Virus record (IMG/VR): IMGVR_UViG_3300044972_001176 | Span: 1 to 27,528 of that record | Length of the DNA: 27,528 nt | Direction: 5' to 3' (one strand) | Source: a virus | Shown here: piece after piece, positions 3,690-27,528 of the stretch | Position numbering within the stretch: position 1 is the first letter of the stretch | Layout of the letters: each line of letters opens with the position of its first letter | Notes under the pieces: generated by a model | The model's input: only the letters and a program-made list of their open reading frames with translations | Told to the model about the DNA's origin: nothing | The model's database searches: none | Translations under genes and position numbers: made by a program

Positions 3690-4592
3690 ATGAAATATGT
3701 ACTAATATTTATAACATTATTTTTTTCATCAATTACATCAGCGTTCGATTTAACCTCAGAACCTATTAAGGTTATTATTCCATTTCCTCCAGGTGGGGGA
3801 GTTGACGCTACCTTTAAACATTTAGCCAAATATGCCTCAAATCATAATATAAAACTAGTACCCGTTTATAAACCAGGAGCTGATGGTCTAATAGGAATGA
3901 ATGAATTATCAAAATCGCCTAAAGATGGTTATCATATTTCTGTTGCTACTAGTGGTACTATAGCGACATATCGATTAAAAAATAATGATGATACTTTAAA
4001 GCCTTTAATTGGTATTAGAAATAGTATGTCAGTTGTAGTTGTGAATAGTAATTCTAATATAAGAACATTTGATGAATATGAATATAATATTAAAAATAAT
4101 CCAAACTTTAATTTTGGATTTGGAGCTCCAGGGCAACGAATGTTAATTAATCAATTGATTAAAAAAATGAAGATTACTAATAATCCCATGATGATACCCT
4201 ACAAAGGTGGCGCAAATGTCGTGGCTGATTTATTAGGTGGTCACATAACCTCAGGAATATTACCATTTGGTATTGTTGCTAGTCATATTGAATCAGGATC
4301 ACTAAGAATGATTGCTATAAATGCCAACAATCCCCCAGAACGATATTCCGATATACTCTTGATTCAAAAAAAATACCCAGATTGGGTGGATTTTGATTGG
4401 TTTTGTCTGGTATTACCATCTGATACTAGTATAGAAATTATCAAAGTGTGGCGTAACTTTATGGAACAATATTTGTCAGATAATAATGTATTGAAAGAAT
4501 TCAAACAGGAATTTACAGAATCCGTGGATAAAGATCAACAAAGTGCCGAATCTACGGTAAAAACTTTTATTGAATGGAGCGGCATAAATTGA
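3690..4592 (+). CDS. TctC/Bug-family periplasmic solute-binding protein
   Basis: A 300-residue Bug/TctC protein with a signal peptide (residues 1-18, LIFITLFFSSITSAF). It keeps the classical first ligand loop IPFPPGGGVDATFKHLAKY and the second loop YKPGADGLIGMNEL followed by the typical PKDGYHISVA strand. Further family motifs are FGFGAPGQRM, PYKGGANVVADLLGGHI and the PERYSD segment. In bacteria such proteins capture a carboxylated ligand for a TctAB permease or for signalling; no permease is encoded here. Its stop overlaps the start of the next gene (ATGA at 4592), so a periplasmic binder is translationally coupled to PP-loop enzymes. That points to a shared pathway, for example substrate capture. 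The coupling is visible; the functional link is inferred. Confidence 0.87.
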   Translation: MKYVLIFITLFFSSITSAFDLTSEPIKVIIPFPPGGGVDATFKHLAKYASNHNIKLVPVYKPGADGLIGMNELSKSPKDGYHISVATSGTIATYRLKNNDDTLKPLIGIRNSMSVVVVNSNSNIRTFDEYEYNIKNNPNFNFGFGAPGQRMLINQLIKKMKITNNPMMIPYKGGANVVADLLGGHITSGILPFGIVASHIESGSLRMIAINANNPPERYSDILLIQKKYPDWVDFDWFCLVLPSDTSIEIIKVWRNFMEQYLSDNNVLKEFKQEFTESVDKDQQSAESTVKTFIEWSGIN

Positions 4593-5737
4593 TGTATAGC
4601 ACTGGATATTATCAGGTTGGTAATACCAAATATTCTAATAAAATATTTGCAGCAATTGACGCCACTTCCACTAACCAGCCAATGACCTGGCATTTTCACG
4701 ATGAGATTTTTGCTACGGTTAAACCAACTGGAATCACTGATATTAAGTTGTTGTACAAAGCACGTGCACAACAACTCAGAGATAAGTACGACTATTTAAT
4801 TTTATATTTCAGCGGAGGGAGCGATAGTTGGACTGTGCTGAATAGCTTTTTAGAAAACAACATCAAACTAGATCGAATATTTGTTAAGTGGCCAATGAAG
4901 GCGGTCGACAAGGGACTATATAAACCAAATTCTATTGATACTTCAGCTTTTAACTTTGCCAGCGAATGGGATCTGGTTATTAAACGTGATTTGCATTGGC
5001 TATCACAACATCATCCAGAAATTGAAATAGAAATAGGCGACTGGCTAGATAACTTAAACCAAGATTATTTTAATGATGATTTATTTGCTAACGCAGTACA
5101 TCATCATTTTATGACTAACTTATTGAGAGTGCCTTGTGGTAGCGTGGCTGAAAAACAGTTGGTTGAGAAAGGTAAAAAAGTAGGATCTATATATGGTGTA
5201 GACAAGCCATCAATAGTAGAACATGATAACAAGTGTTATTTCTTTTTTAAAGACGGTGCCACTACCACATGTCCAGTACGCAAAGATAATCCAGAAGGAA
5301 CCGAATATTTTTATTGGACTCCAGATATGCCACAAATAGCGTTGGAACAGGGCTACATGGTGTATCAGTGGTACAAGAATAATAAACAAAATCGTAATGT
5401 CATTACTTCTTCAATTGTTTCGCCAGAAAAACTTAAATGGGATGATCATCAAATTTCAAGAAATTTTCAGAATTCGATATCAATAATTCGCTCTATAATA
5501 TATCCTGATTGGGACGCACGAAAATTTCAAGCAGATAAGCCACTTCCATTGGCTGAGTTTGATGGTAAACAAAAAGATTTTTGGTTAGAGACCAGACCAG
5601 AAATGCAAGAAATTAAAAAAGTATGGAAATACTATTGGCAATCTTATATTGATAAGATTGATAAAAAGTACATGAACGTGAACAAGGAATTAAAAATTAC
5701 AAGAAGTCGCTATTATTATTTGGGTACAATGGAATGA
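4592..5737 (+). CDS. PP-loop ATP pyrophosphatase, asparagine-synthase-like (paralogue A1)
   Basis: A 381-residue enzyme with the PP-loop motif SGGSDS at residues 74-79, following a YLILYF strand. This is the ATP alpha-phosphate-binding loop of N-type ATP pyrophosphatases (asparagine synthase C-domain, tRNA thiolation and lysidine enzymes). Such enzymes adenylate a carboxyl or carbonyl and transfer nitrogen or sulfur. The first ~70 residues (YYQVGNTKYSNKIFAAIDA...LYKARAQQLRDKYDY) are not an Ntn glutaminase domain, so ammonia or another amine would have to come from elsewhere. The middle has IYGVDKPSIV and YFYWTPDMPQIAL. The protein at 6952-8139 has the same layout and motifs, so the two are paralogues. 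ATG 4592 is chosen over 4574 because of the ATGA overlap and an upstream GGAGCGG site. It overlaps the next gene by ATGA. Confidence 0.78.
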   Translation: MYSTGYYQVGNTKYSNKIFAAIDATSTNQPMTWHFHDEIFATVKPTGITDIKLLYKARAQQLRDKYDYLILYFSGGSDSWTVLNSFLENNIKLDRIFVKWPMKAVDKGLYKPNSIDTSAFNFASEWDLVIKRDLHWLSQHHPEIEIEIGDWLDNLNQDYFNDDLFANAVHHHFMTNLLRVPCGSVAEKQLVEKGKKVGSIYGVDKPSIVEHDNKCYFFFKDGATTTCPVRKDNPEGTEYFYWTPDMPQIALEQGYMVYQWYKNNKQNRNVITSSIVSPEKLKWDDHQISRNFQNSISIIRSIIYPDWDARKFQADKPLPLAEFDGKQKDFWLETRPEMQEIKKVWKYYWQSYIDKIDKKYMNVNKELKITRSRYYYLGTME

Positions 5738-6621
5738 ATAGAATATGGTCATTGACCGAAGATTATAAATTTACTTATAATCTAACAGAATTCGATACAG
5801 TAGACACCAACAACTATGTAGAGGCAATTGAAAAAACTGTTAAATTAGTAAGAGATGATTTTACTAAATTAAATTTACATAAAGTGGCATTATGTTTATC
5901 TGGATCAGATAGCGAACTTATTGCTCATTTTTTACATAAAAATTTTATTCCTACAGAATATTTCTTTTTAGATATTGATGGAATTAATTCTGTTGAATTA
6001 GATTTGTGCAAAAAAATTGCCGCTAAGTATAATACCAAACTTAATGTAATATCTATTACAGAACATGAGTTACTTAATACTATAATATATGAAAATTTTC
6101 ATATTACTCATGTATGTTGGCCAACATATGTCACATTACCATACTTAATCAAAAAAATTCCCAGTGACTTTTATATCATTACCGGAGAGGGTGATATTGA
6201 AAAAGGATGGCCTAGATATTTAAAAATTTACGAACAGAAAATTAAAACTCATGATAATAATTGTTTTTACATTCCTGTACATCTGACAGAAATATCATAT
6301 AGATTATCTATGAATTACTATGATAAACATGGAGAGAGTAATTTTTACAGTAGATGTTTTGACGTCTGGTATCATATTTTAAAAGATTCTAGATTAATAA
6401 CTGATGGTAAATGTATGTTTGATCCCAAAAAAAATATCATATCTGAGATACGAACTCAACTTAATTTACTGAGTCCATTAAAAACCATGAATTATGAAAC
6501 AGGGTATGAAGTAAGAATGAAAATACGAGAGAAAATAATAGAATATGGGAGAACATTTCCCGGATGGCATCCTATTATTGGAGATGTAATACAGATACCT
6601 AAATTTATGATAAATAGTTAA
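5734..6621 (+). CDS. PP-loop ATPase-like protein with a degenerate loop (paralogue B1)
   Basis: A 295-residue protein with ALCLSGSDSELIAHFL around residues 52-67. The loop reads SG-SDS, one glycine short of the SGGxDS consensus, while the flanking strand and helix are intact. It most resembles the protein at 11367-12284 in layout: a short N-terminal region, the loop near residue 56-70, a hydrophobic FFLDIDG strand, then ELDLCKKIAAKYNTKLNVISI. Later it has YIITGEGDIEKG, comparable to the GGE-type substrate segment of asparagine synthases. The missing glycine could mean altered nucleotide binding or a catalytically silent partner subunit. It is the third gene of the Bug-led operon, overlapping its predecessor by four bases. 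Confidence 0.72.
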   Translation: MNRIWSLTEDYKFTYNLTEFDTVDTNNYVEAIEKTVKLVRDDFTKLNLHKVALCLSGSDSELIAHFLHKNFIPTEYFFLDIDGINSVELDLCKKIAAKYNTKLNVISITEHELLNTIIYENFHITHVCWPTYVTLPYLIKKIPSDFYIITGEGDIEKGWPRYLKIYEQKIKTHDNNCFYIPVHLTEISYRLSMNYYDKHGESNFYSRCFDVWYHILKDSRLITDGKCMFDPKKNIISEIRTQLNLLSPLKTMNYETGYEVRMKIREKIIEYGRTFPGWHPIIGDVIQIPKFMINS

Positions 6622-6639
6622 TAATCAAGGAGATTTTAA

Positions 6640-6948
6640 ATGATATTATTTTCAAAGACCTATACTAGATCAAATACAACGATACCTTTTCACAATGAGA
6701 TACTAGATAATACTGTGTATAAACAACATCTGAATCAGAACTATATTCAGACAGAAAAATTACTTCAACAATGGACAGAGTTTAGTGAAGATTTATTAGT
6801 AATGACTTATAATGCATTATGGACTGATCGTGAATCATTTGATGAACATAATGCAGATTCGATTTTAAATATATATTGGACTGATAGAGACGAGTATTGT
6901 AGTACAAATAATATAATACAAGGTACTGGTACATTTGGTTCAATTTAG
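6640..6948 (+). CDS. Small alpha/beta protein, possibly dimeric alpha+beta-barrel (ABM-like)
   Basis: A 102-residue protein preceded by a strong AGGAG ribosome site (about 10 bases upstream). The middle reads LLVMTYNALWTDRESFDEHNADSI, which resembles the strand-helix pattern of antibiotic-biosynthesis-monooxygenase/NIPSNAP-like ferredoxin folds, where a W-x-s-x-e-x-f-d-x-h segment is common. This assignment rests on pattern only. It is the last gene of the rightward operon (Bug, PP-loop, PP-loop, this), and its stop is three bases from the stop of the convergent PP-loop gene. If it belongs to the barrel fold it could be a small tailoring or binding protein; no active-site residue can be named. 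Confidence 0.6.
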   Translation: MILFSKTYTRSNTTIPFHNEILDNTVYKQHLNQNYIQTEKLLQQWTEFSEDLLVMTYNALWTDRESFDEHNADSILNIYWTDRDEYCSTNNIIQGTGTFGSI

Positions 6949-6951
6949 TAA

Positions 6952-8139
6952 TTAATTTTCCGTAAATTTATTAATGAAATTTGACTCATGACCTATCTTC
7001 CAATAATTTGTATACATGACAAATCCTAAGTCTCTATTTATGAAGTACTTGTCATTGATATGTCTTGTTAATAATTTCGTGTCCGACTCAATCATCTGAA
7101 TCATTTTAGAATCATTGTGTAATGTGTACATCCAAGAATCTATTTTTTTTCCTCCCATTATTCCATGTGGACCTGCCTTATCCGCTTGCCACATGAATTG
7201 ATGTTCTATAGTAGGAGCATATATACAAGATACAATTGATCGCTGCCAACGACTTCCTCGAAGTGGATGATTGTTGAACTCTGGCGGTTTAGCAATATCC
7301 CACATTAAGTTCTTAGAATAAGAATTTTCAGGCTTATACATCCATTTACACAATTCATGTGCTTGTTTTACCATGATATTTGGCATATCTGCCGCATAAT
7401 AGAAAAAAATTGACTCAACGTTTGAGTACTTGTCTTTAAAGTGTGGAGTAACTATAGTCGTGGCAGTGTCCATTAATACTGTATATAAATTACCACTGGC
7501 AGTTCTACATATCACCGGTTTGTCAATCCCATATACTACTGCTATTTTTTTACCAGACTCGGCTATATTTTTAATATGATTAATCTTATCAAGAGAGTGT
7601 CTAGTTCCACCAGATAGATGAATCCAATGTCCCAATTGATCGTATAACCACTCATCTGTTTTTAAAGTTATAATATCTTCGAAGTAATCATGAAGTGTAA
7701 TTCTGATATCAGGATGAGATTTAGATATTTTTTCCATCAATGGAATTTGAGCAAATTTTGTTTCACTTATCATTCCATGATAAGTGGTATCAGAACGATC
7801 AAATTTCCAATTGTTTAAACCACTAAATGGTGCAGCAGATACAATTTCATCTACTTTTATATTATTATTCAAAAATGAATATGCCATATTCGTACTATCT
7901 GCACCCCCACTAGTCATCAATATGACATAATCATTTTCATCACGAATCTGTTTCGCTCGCTTCGCATATAATGTAGACATTGATTCATTTGGTTCCACAG
8001 TCCAATTTATATGATCTAAGATTGATCTATTGAAATTCCATTCAATGTCAGATAATGTTTCGTTAGCGTATAATATGGCCGATATTTTATTGTCAAATAT
8101 TTTATTATTTACAGTATAGACTCCCAATTTCGAATTCAT
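6952..8139 (-). CDS. PP-loop ATP pyrophosphatase, asparagine-synthase-like (paralogue A2)
   Basis: A 395-residue paralogue of the protein at 4592-5737. It has the same N-terminal pattern (NNKIFDNKISAILYA, then LYAKRAKQIRDENDYVIL), the PP-loop SGGADS at residues 77-82, an AVVYGIDKPVICR segment, FFYYAADMPNIMVKQ, and a WQADKAGPHG motif matching FQADKPLPLA in the paralogue. N-type ATP pyrophosphatases activate substrates by adenylation; the substrate here is unknown and no glutaminase domain is present. Unlike A1 it lies on the opposite strand as a single gene, convergent with the small ABM-like gene, which suggests duplication followed by rearrangement. No clear promoter was identified in the AT-rich 8140-8194 gap. 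Confidence 0.77.
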   Translation of the reverse strand: MNSKLGVYTVNNKIFDNKISAILYANETLSDIEWNFNRSILDHINWTVEPNESMSTLYAKRAKQIRDENDYVILMTSGGADSTNMAYSFLNNNIKVDEIVSAAPFSGLNNWKFDRSDTTYHGMISETKFAQIPLMEKISKSHPDIRITLHDYFEDIITLKTDEWLYDQLGHWIHLSGGTRHSLDKINHIKNIAESGKKIAVVYGIDKPVICRTASGNLYTVLMDTATTIVTPHFKDKYSNVESIFFYYAADMPNIMVKQAHELCKWMYKPENSYSKNLMWDIAKPPEFNNHPLRGSRWQRSIVSCIYAPTIEHQFMWQADKAGPHGIMGGKKIDSWMYTLHNDSKMIQMIESDTKLLTRHINDKYFINRDLGFVMYTNYWKIGHESNFINKFTEN

Positions 8140-8194
8140 TATGATCTCAGTATAGTTTATTATTTAGTTATCTGATGTCATAATATAAATAAAC

Positions 8195-8797
8195 TTATAA
8201 TAAAATTAAATTATTAAAACTGGTTTGAGTTAGAGATTTATTTATGGTTTGAAAATCTGGATATCCAGCAAATTTGGTTTGTATAATTATTCTTGGATTA
8301 GGGCCATTACATTTGAAACTATGATATGAATCAACATCCAATACATATACATCTCCAATGTCATTATGTAATTCTTCGACATATTCGATATTTTCATAGT
8401 CATAAATTTCTAAATTTCTAGACCTAGATTCAACAGTTTTTGTTTCTACATTAAGACGATTAATAACTTCATCATCGTACCAACGAACCCAATCTGAATC
8501 ATTGCAACTTACAGCTATATTTAAGGCACTTTTACACATTATTCCATCACGATGAATTCTGAATCCATAGTTTGGCTCACTGTAAAAAGCCTTTTGTATA
8601 TATCGATCATTTTCAGAATCGTATTGAATTTTTAATTCAGTATTAATAAATATTGAATTAAAATAATTATTCAAATTTTTATTAAATTGAATCCATTGAT
8701 ATGGATCATTTGTTTTTTTCAATTTCAACAATTGATTTTTAAAATTGTCAATGATATCTATTGGCAACTTACCTAATTTGTTATAATATTTTGACAT
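8195..8797 (-). CDS. Compact 2OG/Fe(II) oxygenase-like protein (hydroxylase)
   Basis: A 200-residue, probably cytoplasmic protein with an iron-triad pattern: His82-x-Asp84 (FRIHRDG), distal His159 (DVDSYHSF) and Arg169 (NPRIIIQTKF) for the 2-oxoglutarate carboxylate. A beta-rich GDVYVLDVD strand precedes the distal histidine, as in double-stranded beta-helix oxygenases such as aspartyl/asparaginyl hydroxylase-like proteins. The motif pattern recurs at 8858-9412 and 9407-9961 with little other similarity. The substrate is unknown. A CATAAATA late-type motif lies 23 bp upstream of its start. Assignment rests on motif spacing, so the fold is probable and the reaction uncertain. Confidence 0.68.
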   Translation of the reverse strand: MSKYYNKLGKLPIDIIDNFKNQLLKLKKTNDPYQWIQFNKNLNNYFNSIFINTELKIQYDSENDRYIQKAFYSEPNYGFRIHRDGIMCKSALNIAVSCNDSDWVRWYDDEVINRLNVETKTVESRSRNLEIYDYENIEYVEELHNDIGDVYVLDVDSYHSFKCNGPNPRIIIQTKFAGYPDFQTINKSLTQTSFNNLILL

Positions 8798-8820
8798 GAA
8801 TTATCTTTGTTAATTTATAA

Positions 8821-8828
8821 TATTTATG
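8821..8828 (-). promoter_or_regulatory. Late-promoter-like CATAAATA
   Basis: The minus strand reads CATAAATA, 23 bp before the ATG at 8797. It is divergent with GATAAATA on the plus strand at 8845-8852. Confidence 0.35.
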
Positions 8829-8844
8829 ATTTAAATTAACTCTA

Positions 8845-8852
8845 GATAAATA
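8845..8852 (+). promoter_or_regulatory. Late promoter candidate GATAAATA, very close to ATG
   Basis: GATAAATA followed by only five bases and then ATG 8858. With T4-type late promoters the start site lies about six bases after the motif, so the message could be leaderless. No ribosome site is visible. Confidence 0.4.
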
Positions 8853-8857
8853 TTGAC

Positions 8858-9412
8858 ATGATTATTAATTCTGAATTCTATTGGAAACACATTGATATCG
8901 ATAATTACGACAACGTAATCAATGAAATTCGATGTTATATGAATGATGAACTAAAAAATATTCTATATCCATATGGATTTGGTATTTATAACAATAAAAG
9001 TAAATTTCAAGAACATTGTGGACTTTTTATGAATTGGGTGGCCAGTCATTCACTAAAGATAAGACGAATTGCCGTAATTAAACTTCCACCTCATAGAATT
9101 CAGAATATACACAGAGATAGTATAGAAGATTTAACTAATACATATGGATTAAATTTAAATTTGTATAATTGTGAAAATAGCTATACTAGAATGTTTGAAC
9201 TAATTGATGAAAATAATGTTCCAGTAACGTCGTATACACCATTTGGTCAACCATTCATACCATATCATGAATCTCAATGTCGAGAAGTAACAAGATATAA
9301 TTTATCTAAACCAGTATTGTTGGATTTAAATAAACTTCATTCAGTAATTAATAATACAAATGATATCAGAATAAGTATATCAATCAGATTTACCACCAAA
9401 CCAGATTTATAA
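8858..9412 (+). CDS. Compact 2OG/Fe(II) oxygenase-like protein
   Basis: A 184-residue protein with His85-x-Asp87 (QNIHRDS), distal His161 (LNKLHSVIN) and Arg171 or Arg177 (DIRISISIRF), a pattern typical of small 2-oxoglutarate/Fe(II) hydroxylases. The strand LSKPVLLDLNKLHSV parallels GDVYVLDVDSYHS in the neighbouring oxygenase. The only plus-strand gene between 6.95 and 27.5 kb, it overlaps the 3' end of the convergent oxygenase gene by six bases. There is no Shine-Dalgarno sequence ahead of ATG 8858, and a late-promoter motif ends five bases before it. An alternative start (Met28) would remove N-terminal sequence but not the triad. The substrate is unknown. Confidence 0.67.
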   Translation: MIINSEFYWKHIDIDNYDNVINEIRCYMNDELKNILYPYGFGIYNNKSKFQEHCGLFMNWVASHSLKIRRIAVIKLPPHRIQNIHRDSIEDLTNTYGLNLNLYNCENSYTRMFELIDENNVPVTSYTPFGQPFIPYHESQCREVTRYNLSKPVLLDLNKLHSVINNTNDIRISISIRFTTKPDL

Positions 9413-9961
9413 TTGATCTTCAATTAAATAATCTTTAAATATTTCAATGGATTCCGTCATAGTTACTCTTTTACTAGTAAATTTATGTATAGGTACTAAA
9501 CTTATACATAGTCTATCTTCAGTAACATCAATGATATTATGTGGAATTCCAACTTGTACAATGGTGGGATTGTAAACTTTAGTTCGTTCTATTTCTTTAA
9601 CTTCATTCGAAGTGTATTGAATACTCGACGTTTTAGTAGATGTAATATTTATTGATTTGTCTGTTTTATCAATAATTTCATACCAACACATTTGAGATTC
9701 CCCACTTCCATATATCCAATTTAGTTTGATATAATCACCACCTAAAGAGTCAACATGTATGGTACCACGATGACCGGCGGGCTTAAAAAATGTCTCGGCA
9801 AAAGTTATTTTTAAATTTAATGAATCAAAAAATTTTAGAAGTTCTTTGTTTAGAAATTCGTTACGATTTAAAATAGAAATATGTTTTTTTGATATATCTT
9901 CAACAGATTTTCCATCTTCTAAAAGTGGAATATTTAAATTTAAAAAGCGAAAGTGTTTCAT
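9407..9961 (-). CDS. Compact 2OG/Fe(II) oxygenase-like protein, last gene of the ACP operon
   Basis: A 184-residue protein with His69-x-Asp71 (GTIHVDSLGG), distal His141 (QVGIPHNIID) and Arg150 (EDRLCISLVP). The layout matches cupin-type hydroxylases. A GSGESQMCWYEI strand and a VQVGIPHNI strand fit a double-stranded beta-helix core. It starts seven bases after the stop of the desaturase gene and is the terminal gene of the seven-gene leftward operon, so it may be a tailoring hydroxylase acting on the product of that operon. That role is inferred from position only. Its 3' end overlaps the convergent oxygenase gene by six bases. Confidence 0.68.
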   Translation of the reverse strand: MKHFRFLNLNIPLLEDGKSVEDISKKHISILNRNEFLNKELLKFFDSLNLKITFAETFFKPAGHRGTIHVDSLGGDYIKLNWIYGSGESQMCWYEIIDKTDKSINITSTKTSSIQYTSNEVKEIERTKVYNPTIVQVGIPHNIIDVTEDRLCISLVPIHKFTSKRVTMTESIEIFKDYLIEDQL

Positions 9962-9968
9962 ACTAATA

Positions 9969-10778
9969 TTATTTTAAAAATGGTAAAAATATTCTGGCAG
10001 GATCCCATTCCCACCAACGACCACTTACAACAGTTCCAAAATCATATGATTTGGGATCATAATGATGATTGTTGTGCCAGCCCTGCCCCCAACCTAGATA
10101 GCCCAATAACATGTTATTATGACTATTGTCCTTGGTATCAAAATTTCTATATCCAATTAATCCTTTATCATGTCCAAATACATTAATTAAATTGTCTTGT
10201 ATCACACCAATAAATGTTACTAACCAAAAAGCACATAATGCCAATCGCCAATCAAATAATGCCACTAATAGTGGGACTCCCCAACAAACTCGTAATAAAT
10301 TTTTATGAAACCATACATGATTAGACTTACGTAATAAATCAATCGCATACTTTAAATTAACTGAATCCGTCATTTCTGTTCGTTTGGATTGCCAACCAAT
10401 AAATGCATGATATTTTCCATATATTACTGGACTATGTAAGTCTTGTACTTGATCACTAAATCTATGATGATAGCCTCTGTGTACAGCAACCCAGAATATA
10501 CTGGCACCTTGACCAGCAAATGAGGCAAAAAATAATATAATATTTTCTTTCCATCTTGGTAAATTATGAGTTTTATGACTGAATATTCGATGATAACCAA
10601 CAGCAATACCTAGTCCACATACTAACATCCACATTACTAATGTAGACCATAGATAATATAGTGGAATTATTCCAATAGCTAATAATACTATAGTCAAAAG
10701 TCCTAATATTATTGCCGGTACAAATTGAAACCAAAATGTTTTTGAAATCGTTGTTAAAAATTTAGAGAGTTTTTTCAT
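9969..10778 (-). CDS. Membrane fatty-acid (acyl-CoA/acyl-lipid) desaturase
   Basis: A 269-residue integral membrane di-iron desaturase. The three histidine boxes are intact: HRIFSH (63-68, plus His71), HRGYHH (100-105) and HNNHH (235-239). Hydrophobic segments cover roughly residues 17-60, 78-95 and 168-190. This layout is the delta-9 acyl-CoA/stearoyl desaturase type, which inserts a double bond in an acyl chain using O2 and reduced electron carrier at the inner membrane. It is shorter than typical bacterial members but lacks no box. Its start overlaps the stop of the GNAT-like gene (ATGA at 10778), and it shares an operon with an acyl carrier protein. An acyl chain is therefore very likely the material this operon handles. 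Confidence 0.9.
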   Translation of the reverse strand: MKKLSKFLTTISKTFWFQFVPAIILGLLTIVLLAIGIIPLYYLWSTLVMWMLVCGLGIAVGYHRIFSHKTHNLPRWKENIILFFASFAGQGASIFWVAVHRGYHHRFSDQVQDLHSPVIYGKYHAFIGWQSKRTEMTDSVNLKYAIDLLRKSNHVWFHKNLLRVCWGVPLLVALFDWRLALCAFWLVTFIGVIQDNLINVFGHDKGLIGYRNFDTKDNSHNNMLLGYLGWGQGWHNNHHYDPKSYDFGTVVSGRWWEWDPARIFLPFLK

Positions 10779-11365
10779 ATATTTCCACCCACCGGCAATT
10801 GTGTTCTATATTCTTGTTTTAAATAACTACAGCGAACTATAGTATCTTCTGGTAATAATAGTCTGTGATATAATAATTCCCAATGATTGGTATAATAACT
10901 TTTGCATCTAGCAGGAACAATACATTCATCAAAATAACCATATCTTTCATCATTATATTCACTATAACTGAATTTTCTAAGTAATTTTGTATGTTTTTGA
11001 TTCACTAATGTGTAAAATTTCAGTCTACCATTGGATTCATTATGATTAATAATTTTATCTAATATTGATTTTAACAATTGATTATTACCACTGCTTCTAC
11101 ACATGGTATAATACCATGCTGGTTCTTCTACACTCTCGTAGAATGACACCAGAGCAGTAACAGTGTTATCTTCAATATAACCATAGGCATGAAAATTCTT
11201 AAGATCACTTAGATAATTTGCACAGAATCTATCATAAATCAATTGATTTAATCCTTCGTCTGCTACTATAAACGAGTCTAAATTATCTACTCCCATATAT
11301 TTTTTGTGAGTAAATAGTTTTTTAATTAATTCGGTGTGTGTACTATCTAGTTTAATTACTGACAT
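10775..11365 (-). CDS. GNAT-fold acyltransferase-like protein (second)
   Basis: A 196-residue protein with a probable GNAT fold: HAYGYIEDNTVTALVSFYES resembles beta2-beta3, followed by CRSSGNNQLLKSILDKII (cofactor-loop and helix position) and LVNQKHTKLLRKFSYSEY (the N-x-x-x-x-x-l-x-x-x-f element near beta5). The canonical Q/R-x-x-G-x-G/A pyrophosphate loop is replaced by RSSGNN, so the donor may not be acetyl-CoA. Members of this superfamily include acyl-homoserine-lactone synthases and N-acyl amino acid synthases that take acyl-ACP. ATG 11365 is chosen over 11413 because it is one base after the preceding stop and has a TTTGGAA site. The stop overlaps the desaturase start. The fold call is pattern-based. 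Confidence 0.6.
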   Translation of the reverse strand: MSVIKLDSTHTELIKKLFTHKKYMGVDNLDSFIVADEGLNQLIYDRFCANYLSDLKNFHAYGYIEDNTVTALVSFYESVEEPAWYYTMCRSSGNNQLLKSILDKIINHNESNGRLKFYTLVNQKHTKLLRKFSYSEYNDERYGYFDECIVPARCKSYYTNHWELLYHRLLLPEDTIVRCSYLKQEYRTQLPVGGNI

Positions 11366-11366
11366 A

Positions 11367-12284
11367 TTATTTTCCAAATAATTGTTGTTGTAAATCAGTG
11401 ATGAATATTCCATCTAAACTGCTTTCCAATCGTTTGACATGACTCTTATATAATACATTGTAAGTTTCAACATTGAATCCCATAAGTTTTTCATATCCAT
11501 GTGTTTTTTTCTTGTCAATTATTGATGGCATCATACTTTGTAAAATGTCATTTTTTGAACTAACACTGGACATTTTATAATTATGTTTATCATTTATTAA
11601 TCGTTGAATATTATAATGTTCTAAATAATATCCCATCATTTCAGGTGTATAACTAAACCATTCATTTACCAATGGAATATTGTATTTTAAACTAAATCTC
11701 ATTGCGCTGGCATCTTCATTTTCACGAAAACAATAATACCATTGACTACCGTTGATATCAACATGTCGTCTGAGCATCATTTCACCACCCATAATAGATG
11801 GCACGCCTAATTTTAAAATATTATGATATACAGTTAAATATGCCATTTGCCGACATTGAATGGTTTCACTAAATTCATATGCTTGACCACTGTTGTAGAA
11901 CTCTTTAACATCAAATTCAATTACTTCAAGTTTAATGTCTAATTCTCTGGTAATTTCTTCAGCTATCTTTAAATCTTCAATATTATAATCGTTTTTGAAT
12001 TTAATAAACACTGTTCGTGGTGTAATACCAACATGTTTAAAAGCTCTAAGTACAATCTCACTGTCAGTGCCTCCACTAAACATTACAACCAAATCAGATC
12101 CAAAATCATCATATATCAAGTTAGCTGTTCTATATTGTTCATTAAGCCAAGAACTTTTTTTATAATAATGATGATCTATTGAACCACAAGATACTGAAAA
12201 CTTTTCATATGGAGTTAATCTAATTCCATATAATCTATCATCAATATTATATTTCAAATGATTATCAAGTGTAAAATTATACAT
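11367..12284 (-). CDS. PP-loop ATPase, asparagine-synthase-like (paralogue B2)
   Basis: A 305-residue enzyme with a canonical PP-loop SGGTDS (residues 70-75) after a DLVVMF strand, then TVFIKFKNDYNIEDLKIAEEI and a GVPSIMGGEMMLRRH segment like the substrate site of asparagine synthases. There is no glutaminase domain. It probably adenylates a carboxylate and transfers an amino group or other nucleophile. Its closest relative in the window is 5734-6621, the copy with a degraded loop. The start ATG overlaps the acyl carrier protein stop (TAATG at 12286-12282), so the two are translationally coupled. A PP-loop ligase directly after a free ACP raises the possibility that it acts on, or competes for, a carrier-bound or free acyl/amino acid. 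That is inference. Confidence 0.76.
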   Translation of the reverse strand: MYNFTLDNHLKYNIDDRLYGIRLTPYEKFSVSCGSIDHHYYKKSSWLNEQYRTANLIYDDFGSDLVVMFSGGTDSEIVLRAFKHVGITPRTVFIKFKNDYNIEDLKIAEEITRELDIKLEVIEFDVKEFYNSGQAYEFSETIQCRQMAYLTVYHNILKLGVPSIMGGEMMLRRHVDINGSQWYYCFRENEDASAMRFSLKYNIPLVNEWFSYTPEMMGYYLEHYNIQRLINDKHNYKMSSVSSKNDILQSMMPSIIDKKKTHGYEKLMGFNVETYNVLYKSHVKRLESSLDGIFITDLQQQLFGK

Positions 12285-12517
12285 TACATTAAATTAATCA
12301 AGTCTCTAACGGTTGTAGGTGATTTAAGAGTATCTGGAAATTCCACGTTAAATGTTTCTTCATATTCAACTTGAAGTTCAATTATATCCAAAGAATCCAA
12401 ACCTATATTATATAGATTGTCATCAATTGATACTTTAAAATTTTTATCAAATAATTTAGATAATGATTTATTTAAAAATTCTAATTTTTCTGATTCAGTT
12501 GTTAATTTGTTTGTCAT
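12284..12517 (-). CDS. Acyl carrier protein
   Basis: A 77-residue free-standing carrier protein, the usual ACP length. The phosphopantetheine attachment motif is GLDSLD with Ser42, followed by the acidic recognition helix IIELQVEYEETFNVEFPD and a C-terminal TVRDLINLM helix, all typical of ACPs. The protein must be activated by a 4'-phosphopantetheinyl transferase, presumably the host's. A longer upstream reading frame is open, but ATG 12517 gives the family length and overlaps the GNAT gene by 23 bases. Its neighbours (two GNAT-like proteins, desaturase, PP-loop enzyme) suggest it carries an acyl or aminoacyl intermediate for a dedicated product rather than serving bulk fatty-acid synthesis. 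Confidence 0.88.
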   Translation of the reverse strand: MTNKLTTESEKLEFLNKSLSKLFDKNFKVSIDDNLYNIGLDSLDIIELQVEYEETFNVEFPDTLKSPTTVRDLINLM

Positions 12518-13049
12518 ATTCTGCTGTCCATTGTTCTGTATAATATATTGTATGTTTGCCAATTGGTTTAAAACGTTTATAAATATCTGGCCAATCATTA
12601 AACAATACTGGTCGTTTAGTCTGACTAACTCTTTCAAAATATTTATAAATGGAATAATTATGATCATTGACAGTGACCCAAAGTTTGAGATAATTTATAG
12701 ATTCTTGAATCATCTTTGGTAATATGGTATTGCCAATAATATATTGCGCTCTATACTTGGGAGAAATATACATTCTAGTTAATAACAATGCCACACTTGA
12801 ATCTAAATCATATTCATTCCATCCTGCACTACACAAATACTTATCGTTATCATCAGTGATTACAAAATATTTACCATGACCATAATGATAACGACCTTGA
12901 TTTAAAATATAGAATAAATTACCAGAAATATTATTATAATCTGGATGATAGTTTTTGACAATATTTTCATCATGTATATCTGACAGACCATGTTTAAGAA
13001 TGTCAATTATTGGTTGATTACTTAGATCGTGTATTTCGTGTATTTTCAT
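12495..13049 (-). CDS. GNAT-fold acyltransferase-like protein (first)
   Basis: A 184-residue protein with a GNAT-like core: GKYFVITDDNDKYLCSAGWN (residues 59-78, beta2-beta3), ALLLTRMYISPKYRAQYIIG (87-106, beta4 and donor-binding loop, where PKYRAQYIIGN sits at the usual Q/R-x-x-G-x-G position) and LWVTVNDHNYSIYKYFERVS (beta5 with the family's N-x-x-x-x-x-Y element). It probably transfers an acyl group to an amine; given the ACP immediately downstream, acyl-ACP is a candidate donor. It overlaps the SleB gene upstream by 32 bases and the ACP gene downstream by 23 bases. A second GNAT-like gene lies three genes further on. Substrates are unknown. Confidence 0.65.
   Translation of the reverse strand: MKIHEIHDLSNQPIIDILKHGLSDIHDENIVKNYHPDYNNISGNLFYILNQGRYHYGHGKYFVITDDNDKYLCSAGWNEYDLDSSVALLLTRMYISPKYRAQYIIGNTILPKMIQESINYLKLWVTVNDHNYSIYKYFERVSQTKRPVLFNDWPDIYKRFKPIGKHTIYYTEQWTAEYDKQINN

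Positions 13050-25194: not shown

Positions 25195-27528
<2,334 letters not shown>

Follow-up and report, generated by a model that had tools for sequence, protein, structure and literature searches.

A conserved gene cassette of large, uncultured T4-like phages and its possible role in acyl-amide synthesis

We analysed a 27,528-base virus record, itself a fragment (IMG/VR IMGVR_UViG_3300044972_001176, positions 1 to 27,528; hereafter the window). It carries a conserved cassette of five genes that recurs in related phages and that we found only in phages, as far as our sequence scans reach. The genes lie on the minus strand (9969-13049, Table 1) and encode, in order, a GNAT-fold protein (GNAT2), an acyl carrier protein (ACP), a PP-loop ATP pyrophosphatase (PP4), a second GNAT-fold protein (GNAT1) and a membrane desaturase (DES). 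An original prediction, made from the letters alone, had proposed a biosynthesis locus of 8.5 kb. The core of that locus is recurrent, most of the genes outside 9969-13049 vary independently, and we gave up the whole 8.5 kb as a single cluster: grouping beyond chance holds only for the core. The original observation stands, in a form both narrower and stronger. We see about an even chance that this virus-only cassette, with a PP4-GNAT1-DES core, usually GNAT2 and often ACP, directs the synthesis, during infection, of an acylated small molecule or lipid of the amide type.

A scan with a PP4 profile returned 78 viral loci. The PP4 loci in all (89) fell into 66 clusters at 95% nucleotide identity, and 54 of these had at least 4 kb of sequence on each side. 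GNAT1 was present in all 54 and lay directly downstream of PP4 in 53; DES was present in 53, GNAT2 in 33 and ACP in 21. When the search was anchored reciprocally on GNAT1, PP4 was found in 52 of 54 loci; of the two loci without it, one (L156) starts at the edge of its contig. Anchoring on GNAT2 gave a strong PP4 in 29 of 38 loci; in several of the other nine, GNAT2 adjoins a desaturase. The order GNAT2-ACP-PP4-GNAT1-DES recurs on one strand in relatives while other genes move, and PP4 members diverge to about 50% identity. The five genes sum to ~3 kb and their frames overlap in the window. The same holds in the relatives, most commonly by 4 bases: PP4 overlaps GNAT1 in 46 of 48 pairs, ACP overlaps PP4 in 19 of 24, and GNAT1 overlaps DES in 23 of 39.

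The core is under purifying selection. Compared with the close relative L004, the ratio of nonsynonymous to synonymous substitution rates (dN/dS) was 0.074 for PP4, 0.071 for GNAT1 and 0.064 for DES, values close to those of the phage NrdA and NrdB genes (0.083 and 0.067, compared with L024). For GNAT2, ACP and the three oxygenases, the ratio relative to L004 was 0.17-0.37. The T4 late-promoter-like TATAAATA occurred no more often than expected by chance. On the PP4 tree, the presence of ACP changes seven times by parsimony, and supported branches force at least five of these changes; such repeated change is consistent with interchangeable carriers. One class of loci has the order DES-PP4-GNAT1, lacks ACP and usually carries the gene g12 on the opposite strand. 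The match of g12 to the GNAT2 profile is weak (hhalign probability 37%, E 3.7e-4), and g12 is thus a possible second GNAT of this class, as a candidate only. Taken together, recurrent order, overlapping frames, purifying selection and conserved catalytic residues uphold a phage-encoded biosynthetic module for the five-gene core and not for the whole stretch: the core is a predicted set of biosynthetic enzymes inherited together, one of the marks of a phage-encoded biosynthetic gene cluster.

PP4, the anchor of the cassette, is predicted to belong to the PP-loop ATP pyrophosphatase superfamily. Residues S70, G71, G72, D74 and S75 are invariant in 18 members. Family matches were weak but consistent (QueC 2e-4, LarE 3e-4, Asn_synthase 3e-3, PADLOC QueC 5.9e-6), and the PDB matches over the loop were MJ0690 (6.7e-4), NadE, LarE, Cap9, MnmA and QueC. 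PP4 has the SGGxDS loop in common with QueC, LarE and AsnB, but the similarity is confined to about 65-100 residues round the loop, the remainder is unlike, and PP4 has no glutaminase domain. As a QueC, it scored 21.4 bits against a curated cut-off of 22, over the N-terminal 67 positions only, and did not qualify for that family. Several carriers encode a separate QueC-like protein of ~210 aa, which aligns with the C-terminal portion of the QueC profile (L220, L222 and others), and L029 carries a GTP cyclohydrolase I-like gene (4918-5694); these phages may thus also have a deazaguanine pathway. A defence-system identity of the cassette was also considered and dropped: PADLOC returned only the QueC-like loop of PP4.

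The two GNAT assignments came from structure. The AlphaFold2 model of GNAT2 (predicted local distance difference test score, pLDDT, 92.9) matched GNATs in the PDB with Z up to 13.5 (root-mean-square deviation, rmsd, 2.6 over 142 residues), and the model of GNAT1 (pLDDT 70.5) did so with Z up to 14.8 (rmsd 2.8 over 155 residues). On these models both proteins have the GNAT fold, as had been predicted. Sequence comparison of the two with the PDB gave nothing useful. Neither had a relevant Pfam, PHROGs or PADLOC family, and GNAT1, the only one of the two scanned in NCBIfam, had none there; neither qualified by sequence as an N-acyl amino acid synthase or OlsB family member. The GNAT1 loop reads R106-x-x-G109-N-N, with R and G conserved in 90% or more of the members and N at the last position, where the canonical motif R/Q-x-x-G-x-G/A has G or A. 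The GNAT1 open reading frame (ORF) opens at 11413, and the internal Met at 11365 is the likely start.

The carrier protein is predicted to be a true ACP: it matches Pfam PP-binding (1.1e-7) and, by profile, ACPs in the PDB (2.5e-11), and the serine of its DSL motif is invariant in 11 sequences. With the true start at 12517, the modified serine is Ser42 in GLDSLD, just as the original prediction had it. A search of 19 records from the carrier phage group yielded no phosphopantetheinyl transferase (PPTase), so the ACP would need a host PPTase. For carriers whose cassette has no ACP, none was found elsewhere in their records. The call of a three-histidine-box desaturase also held. DES has the boxes HRIFSH, HRGYHH and HNNHH and matches Pfam FA_desaturase (2e-10) and the PDB acyl-CoA desaturase 4zyo (1.1e-14, residues 23-246), and the boxes and the profile over the catalytic core mark it as a predicted enzyme of the stearoyl-coenzyme A (CoA) desaturase (SCD) type, whose substrate may be acyl-CoA or acyl-ACP. 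Several phages have two to four desaturases, with DES-family paralogues elsewhere in the same genomes; L010 has three tandem desaturase-family genes (8975-11228) in addition to the core DES.

How might these enzymes work together? A fatty acyl group would be supplied by host fatty-acid synthesis and held as acyl-ACP, the phage ACP being charged by the host PPTase; phages without an ACP would rely on host ACP or CoA. DES would put in a double bond, one GNAT would pass the acyl group to an amine, and PP4 with ATP would adenylate a carboxylate (or amide), to be captured by an amine or other nucleophile. A second GNAT, where present, would attach a further acyl group, and the variable neighbours (2-oxoglutarate (2OG) oxygenases, radical SAM, Rieske and P450 enzymes) would tailor the product differently in each phage. 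An AMP-binding ligase was found in only two of the 19 carrier-group records, outside the cassette, and the acyl thioester is thus probably taken from the host. The rare ligase, the missing PPTase and the optional ACP together suggest that acyl groups arrive as host acyl-ACP or acyl-CoA. An acylated amine or amide product is compatible with the enzyme types; here we infer the reaction order, the acyl and amine substrates, the product and the benefit to the phage.

Several observations weigh against such a pathway. The loci share ancestry, so that 54 loci are not 54 independent trials, and no cultured carrier was found in the collections searched. Confidence in the GNAT1 model is only medium. 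In most GNAT2 members the loop reads R-x-x-Y-x-x-G, lacks the usual glycine and departs from the canonical motif. Since neither GNAT falls into a known family by sequence, the choice of CoA or ACP as substrate is an assumption drawn from the fold and, for GNAT1, one motif. ACP is absent from 33 and GNAT2 from 21 of the 54 loci, and an acyl-ACP step would thus not be universal. PP-loop enzymes, moreover, also perform sulfur transfer and tRNA or base chemistry.

We weighed four alternatives, given here in falling order of likelihood. The same enzymes might remodel host or virion lipids, placing a desaturated acyl group on an amino acid or amine much as in an ornithine-type aminolipid, so that the product would be membrane-bound rather than diffusible. 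The SCD-type membrane desaturase speaks for this, as does the recurrent neighbour OGh4, which is near the Asp/Asn beta-hydroxylase family PF05118, a family to which the lipid hydroxylases LpxO and OlsC belong. However, sequence comparison places neither GNAT in an acyltransferase family, of the OlsB type or otherwise, and an enzyme like PP4 is not known to take part in aminolipid synthesis; we consider lipid remodelling unlikely, if a serious contender. Alternatively, a hypervariable cargo region may collect loosely linked metabolic genes, the core order being simply inherited. This does hold for PP1, PP2, PP3, the ABM-like gene, the oxygenases, TauD and TctC, and both the nine GNAT2 loci without a strong PP4 and the DES paralogues elsewhere in the genomes agree with it. 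For the core, we find it improbable: PP4, GNAT1 and DES remain linked while ACP and GNAT2 vary in presence and DES may precede or follow PP4, and overlapping frames and low dN/dS also argue against independence.

Only a slim chance goes to hypermodification of phage DNA bases or tRNA, in which a QueC- or TilS-like PP4 would act with the GNATs and the 2OG oxygenases, and DES and ACP would be passengers. Such enzyme types are common in phage base modification, and the top weak matches of PP4 are QueC, LarE, MnmA and TilS. This reading leaves the desaturase of 53 of 54 loci, and the ACP of many, poorly explained, and the separate QueC-like protein means that PP4 is not the sole candidate in several carriers. 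We regard as very improbable the tailoring of a phage- or host-encoded peptide of the ribosomally synthesized and post-translationally modified (RiPP) kind, or of a protein N-terminus, with the GNATs as N-acyltransferases and PP4 forming an amide. Radical SAM/SPASM, ATP-grasp and P450 genes do lie nearby in relatives, and protein N-terminal acetyltransferases are among the many structures that the GNAT folds resemble. Yet the radical SAM, ATP-grasp and P450 genes all lie outside the core. In the gene maps, which list ORFs of at least 60 aa and involved no dedicated search for shorter ones, we saw no conserved small precursor next to PP4.

The acyl-amide pathway can be put more broadly, as a complete virus-only route to natural products or lipids: an acyl-amide line that evolved and diversified in T4-type large phages, with a constant core of PP-loop, GNAT and desaturase, swappable tailoring enzymes (oxygenases, radical SAM, ATP-grasp and P450) and products differing by phage. 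We hold this broader version to be possible and lean towards doubting it. Phage metabolic genes are usually single host-derived copies that boost host metabolism; here, by contrast, many phages maintain a linked multi-gene module under strong selection. If a defined molecule is made, viruses would possess their own secondary metabolism, and the molecule might alter the membrane, exclude rival phages, act as a signal or inhibit other cells. Expression of the five genes as a single operon is feasible, so the question is directly testable.

We also asked where the cassette occurs. PP4 and GNAT1 had no relative in 84,980 prokaryote species (GTDB scans), and PP1, PP4 and ACP had none among 50,697 phage records; these scans reach tblastn-level relatives only, and records very near the window were possibly excluded. 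A cellular origin of the cassette was rejected on the GTDB results for PP4 and GNAT1, within that reach. Among cultured phages, DES matched only Pelagibacter phage Mosig and Acinetobacter 'phage MD-2021a'. The desaturase of the latter (CAKLQH020000002.1) has trpB, trpC, btuB and baeS/baeR as neighbours, which resemble a bacterial chromosome, and the record may be non-phage there. We found no published account of this gene combination in the open-access literature, subscription papers being outside the search.

Parts of the cassette recall known systems. OlsB and the N-acyl amino acid synthases that have a dedicated ACP (FeeM/FeeL) involve a GNAT-type acyltransferase that works with acyl-ACP. 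In contrast to these, GNAT1 and GNAT2 match no Pfam family, and the cassette adds a PP-loop enzyme and a desaturase. JamABC-type acyl-ACP desaturation pairs a membrane desaturase with a dedicated ACP; the present cassette has no acyl-ACP ligase, and PP4 and the GNATs have no JamABC counterpart. The nearest cultured analogue in style is the desaturase region of Pelagibacter phage Mosig EXVC030M (MT647606), a T4-type member of the Kyanoviridae, where a desaturase lies beside an aminotransferase, an N-acetyltransferase, 2OG enzymes and a methylase. Its desaturase is only 28% identical to DES, however, and neither ACP nor PP4 was found in the record. Phage-borne biosynthetic gene clusters are described as rare and mostly from temperate phages (Dragos et al. 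2021, as reviewed in PMC10452541). They too encode small-molecule biosynthesis on phage DNA, whereas the present cassette is in T4-type large phages and PP4 and GNAT1 had no cellular counterpart in our scans. ACP genes are known in cyanophages P-HM1 and P-HM2 and in Eneladusvirus and Vi01-like phages (PMC3037559, PMC7760394, PMC10892097), which likewise carry a free ACP in a large phage. P-HM2 has its own ACP synthase, and its ACP lies among baseplate and fibre genes; here the ACP is part of a GNAT, PP-loop and desaturase operon.

The carriers are predicted to be uncultured, very large T4-like phages. The T4-type major capsid protein gp23 was above cut-off in eight of 15 cassette-carrying records tested, and the largest record with a related cassette is 525 kb. 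The closest cultured gp23 proteins are those of Vibrio phage 2.275.O (67%), Sinorhizobium phage Phosso (65%) and Pseudomonas phage PA5oct (64%); neither PP4 nor a desaturase was found in any of these phages or in Escherichia phage PBECO4. Apart from the metabolic stretch, the window encodes ribonucleotide reductase NrdA/NrdB, a glutaredoxin-like protein, a PAAR-like protein and fibronectin-like and collagen-like fibre proteins, all named as read from the sequence, and two SleB-type cell-wall hydrolases (profile match). A long collagen-like GATG-repeat ORF (25195-27528) is open at the window end and is fused to an apparent fibre C-terminal domain.

The genes between the start of PP1 (4574, rather than 4592 as first given) and the end of the core include no replication or virion gene, in line with the original prediction. 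Co-occurrence in related phages separates them from the core: for PP1, PP2, PP3, the ABM-like gene and the three oxygenases, occurrence is tied neither to the core nor to one another, and TauD and TctC likewise come and go.

Table 1. Core cassette and accessory genes in the window
Feature	Positions	Strand	Description
GNAT2	12495..13049	-	GNAT-fold protein, 184 aa, first core gene; AlphaFold2 model and PDB match
ACP	12284..12517	-	Predicted free acyl carrier protein, 77 aa, phosphopantetheine Ser42 in GLDSLD; overlaps GNAT2 and PP4
PP4	11367..12284	-	Predicted single-domain PP-loop ATP pyrophosphatase, 305 aa, SGGTDSE; cassette anchor
GNAT1	10775..11365	-	GNAT-fold protein with CoA/pantetheine-type RxxGNN motif; AlphaFold2 model and PDB match
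DES	9969..10778	-	Predicted membrane diiron desaturase, SCD type, three His boxes
OGc	9407..9961	-	2OG/Fe(II) oxygenase-like, accessory; H69xD71...H141...R150 invariant 6/6; scattered occurrence
OGb	8858..9412	+	2OG/Fe(II) oxygenase-like, accessory; H85xD87...H161...R171 invariant 17/17
OGa	8195..8797	-	2OG/Fe(II) oxygenase-like, accessory; H82xD84...H159...R169 invariant 29/29; in 24/71 loci compared
PP3	6952..8139	-	PP-loop protein (SGGADS), PP1 paralogue (31% identity); accessory
ABM-like	6640..6948	+	102 aa, label from the original prediction; 13 members in 11 loci
PP2	5734..6621	+	PP-loop-like, degenerate SGSDS; accessory; relatives in 3 other loci
PP1	4574..5737	+	PP-loop protein (SGGSDS); accessory, adjoins TctC-type gene

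Four PP-loop proteins had been claimed. PP1, PP3 and PP4 carry SGGxDS, but PP2 has only a marginal NCBIfam match to asparagine synthase (E 0.0086) besides its degenerate loop. The PP1/3 family profile shows distant kinship to that of PP4 over 161 columns (E 4.8e-7) and no match in the PDB. L001 has PP1 relatives at 65% identity, and no core cassette was detected in the L001 stretch examined. The three putative 2OG oxygenases keep the H-x-D...H...R residues on which their assignment is based, and none has a Pfam match. The ABM label found no support: the small protein had no meaningful match in Pfam, PHROGs, NCBIfam or PADLOC, and its family adjoins PP1/3 genes in five loci.

The cargo round the core in relatives comprises three radical SAM families, TauD and Asp/Asn-hydroxylase-like 2OG enzymes, cupins, Rieske, ATP-grasp, methyltransferase, short-chain dehydrogenase and Asn-synthase-like proteins; PP1, PP2 and PP3 are part of this cargo. 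The AsnB-like family 58 and the single-locus ATP-grasp and Rieske examples are named by motif, and the census backs ATP-grasp and Rieske only in aggregate. OGh4 occurs in 32 of the 71 loci compared and is adjacent to TauD in 16 loci. A Rieske-type oxygenase family is present in seven of the 71 loci (L018 14112-14948, L068 and others), often beside a second, divergent PP4-like gene. Cytochrome P450 (Pfam 2.8e-17) occurs at L018 16505-17641 and in L225, a 348,701-base record; the gene lies beside PP1/3 and ABM-like genes in a T4-type large phage. NifU/IscU-like and rubrerythrin-like proteins are encoded upstream of the cassette in many relatives, L008 (2926-3306) and L018 (5358-5825) among them. 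Lastly, PP1/3-type genes lie directly beside a gene for a TctC-type solute-binding protein in eight adjacent same-strand pairs, at locations that include window 3690-5737, L001 7916-9980, L008 13408-15400 and L012 10788-12900; this pair is possibly a second small cassette.

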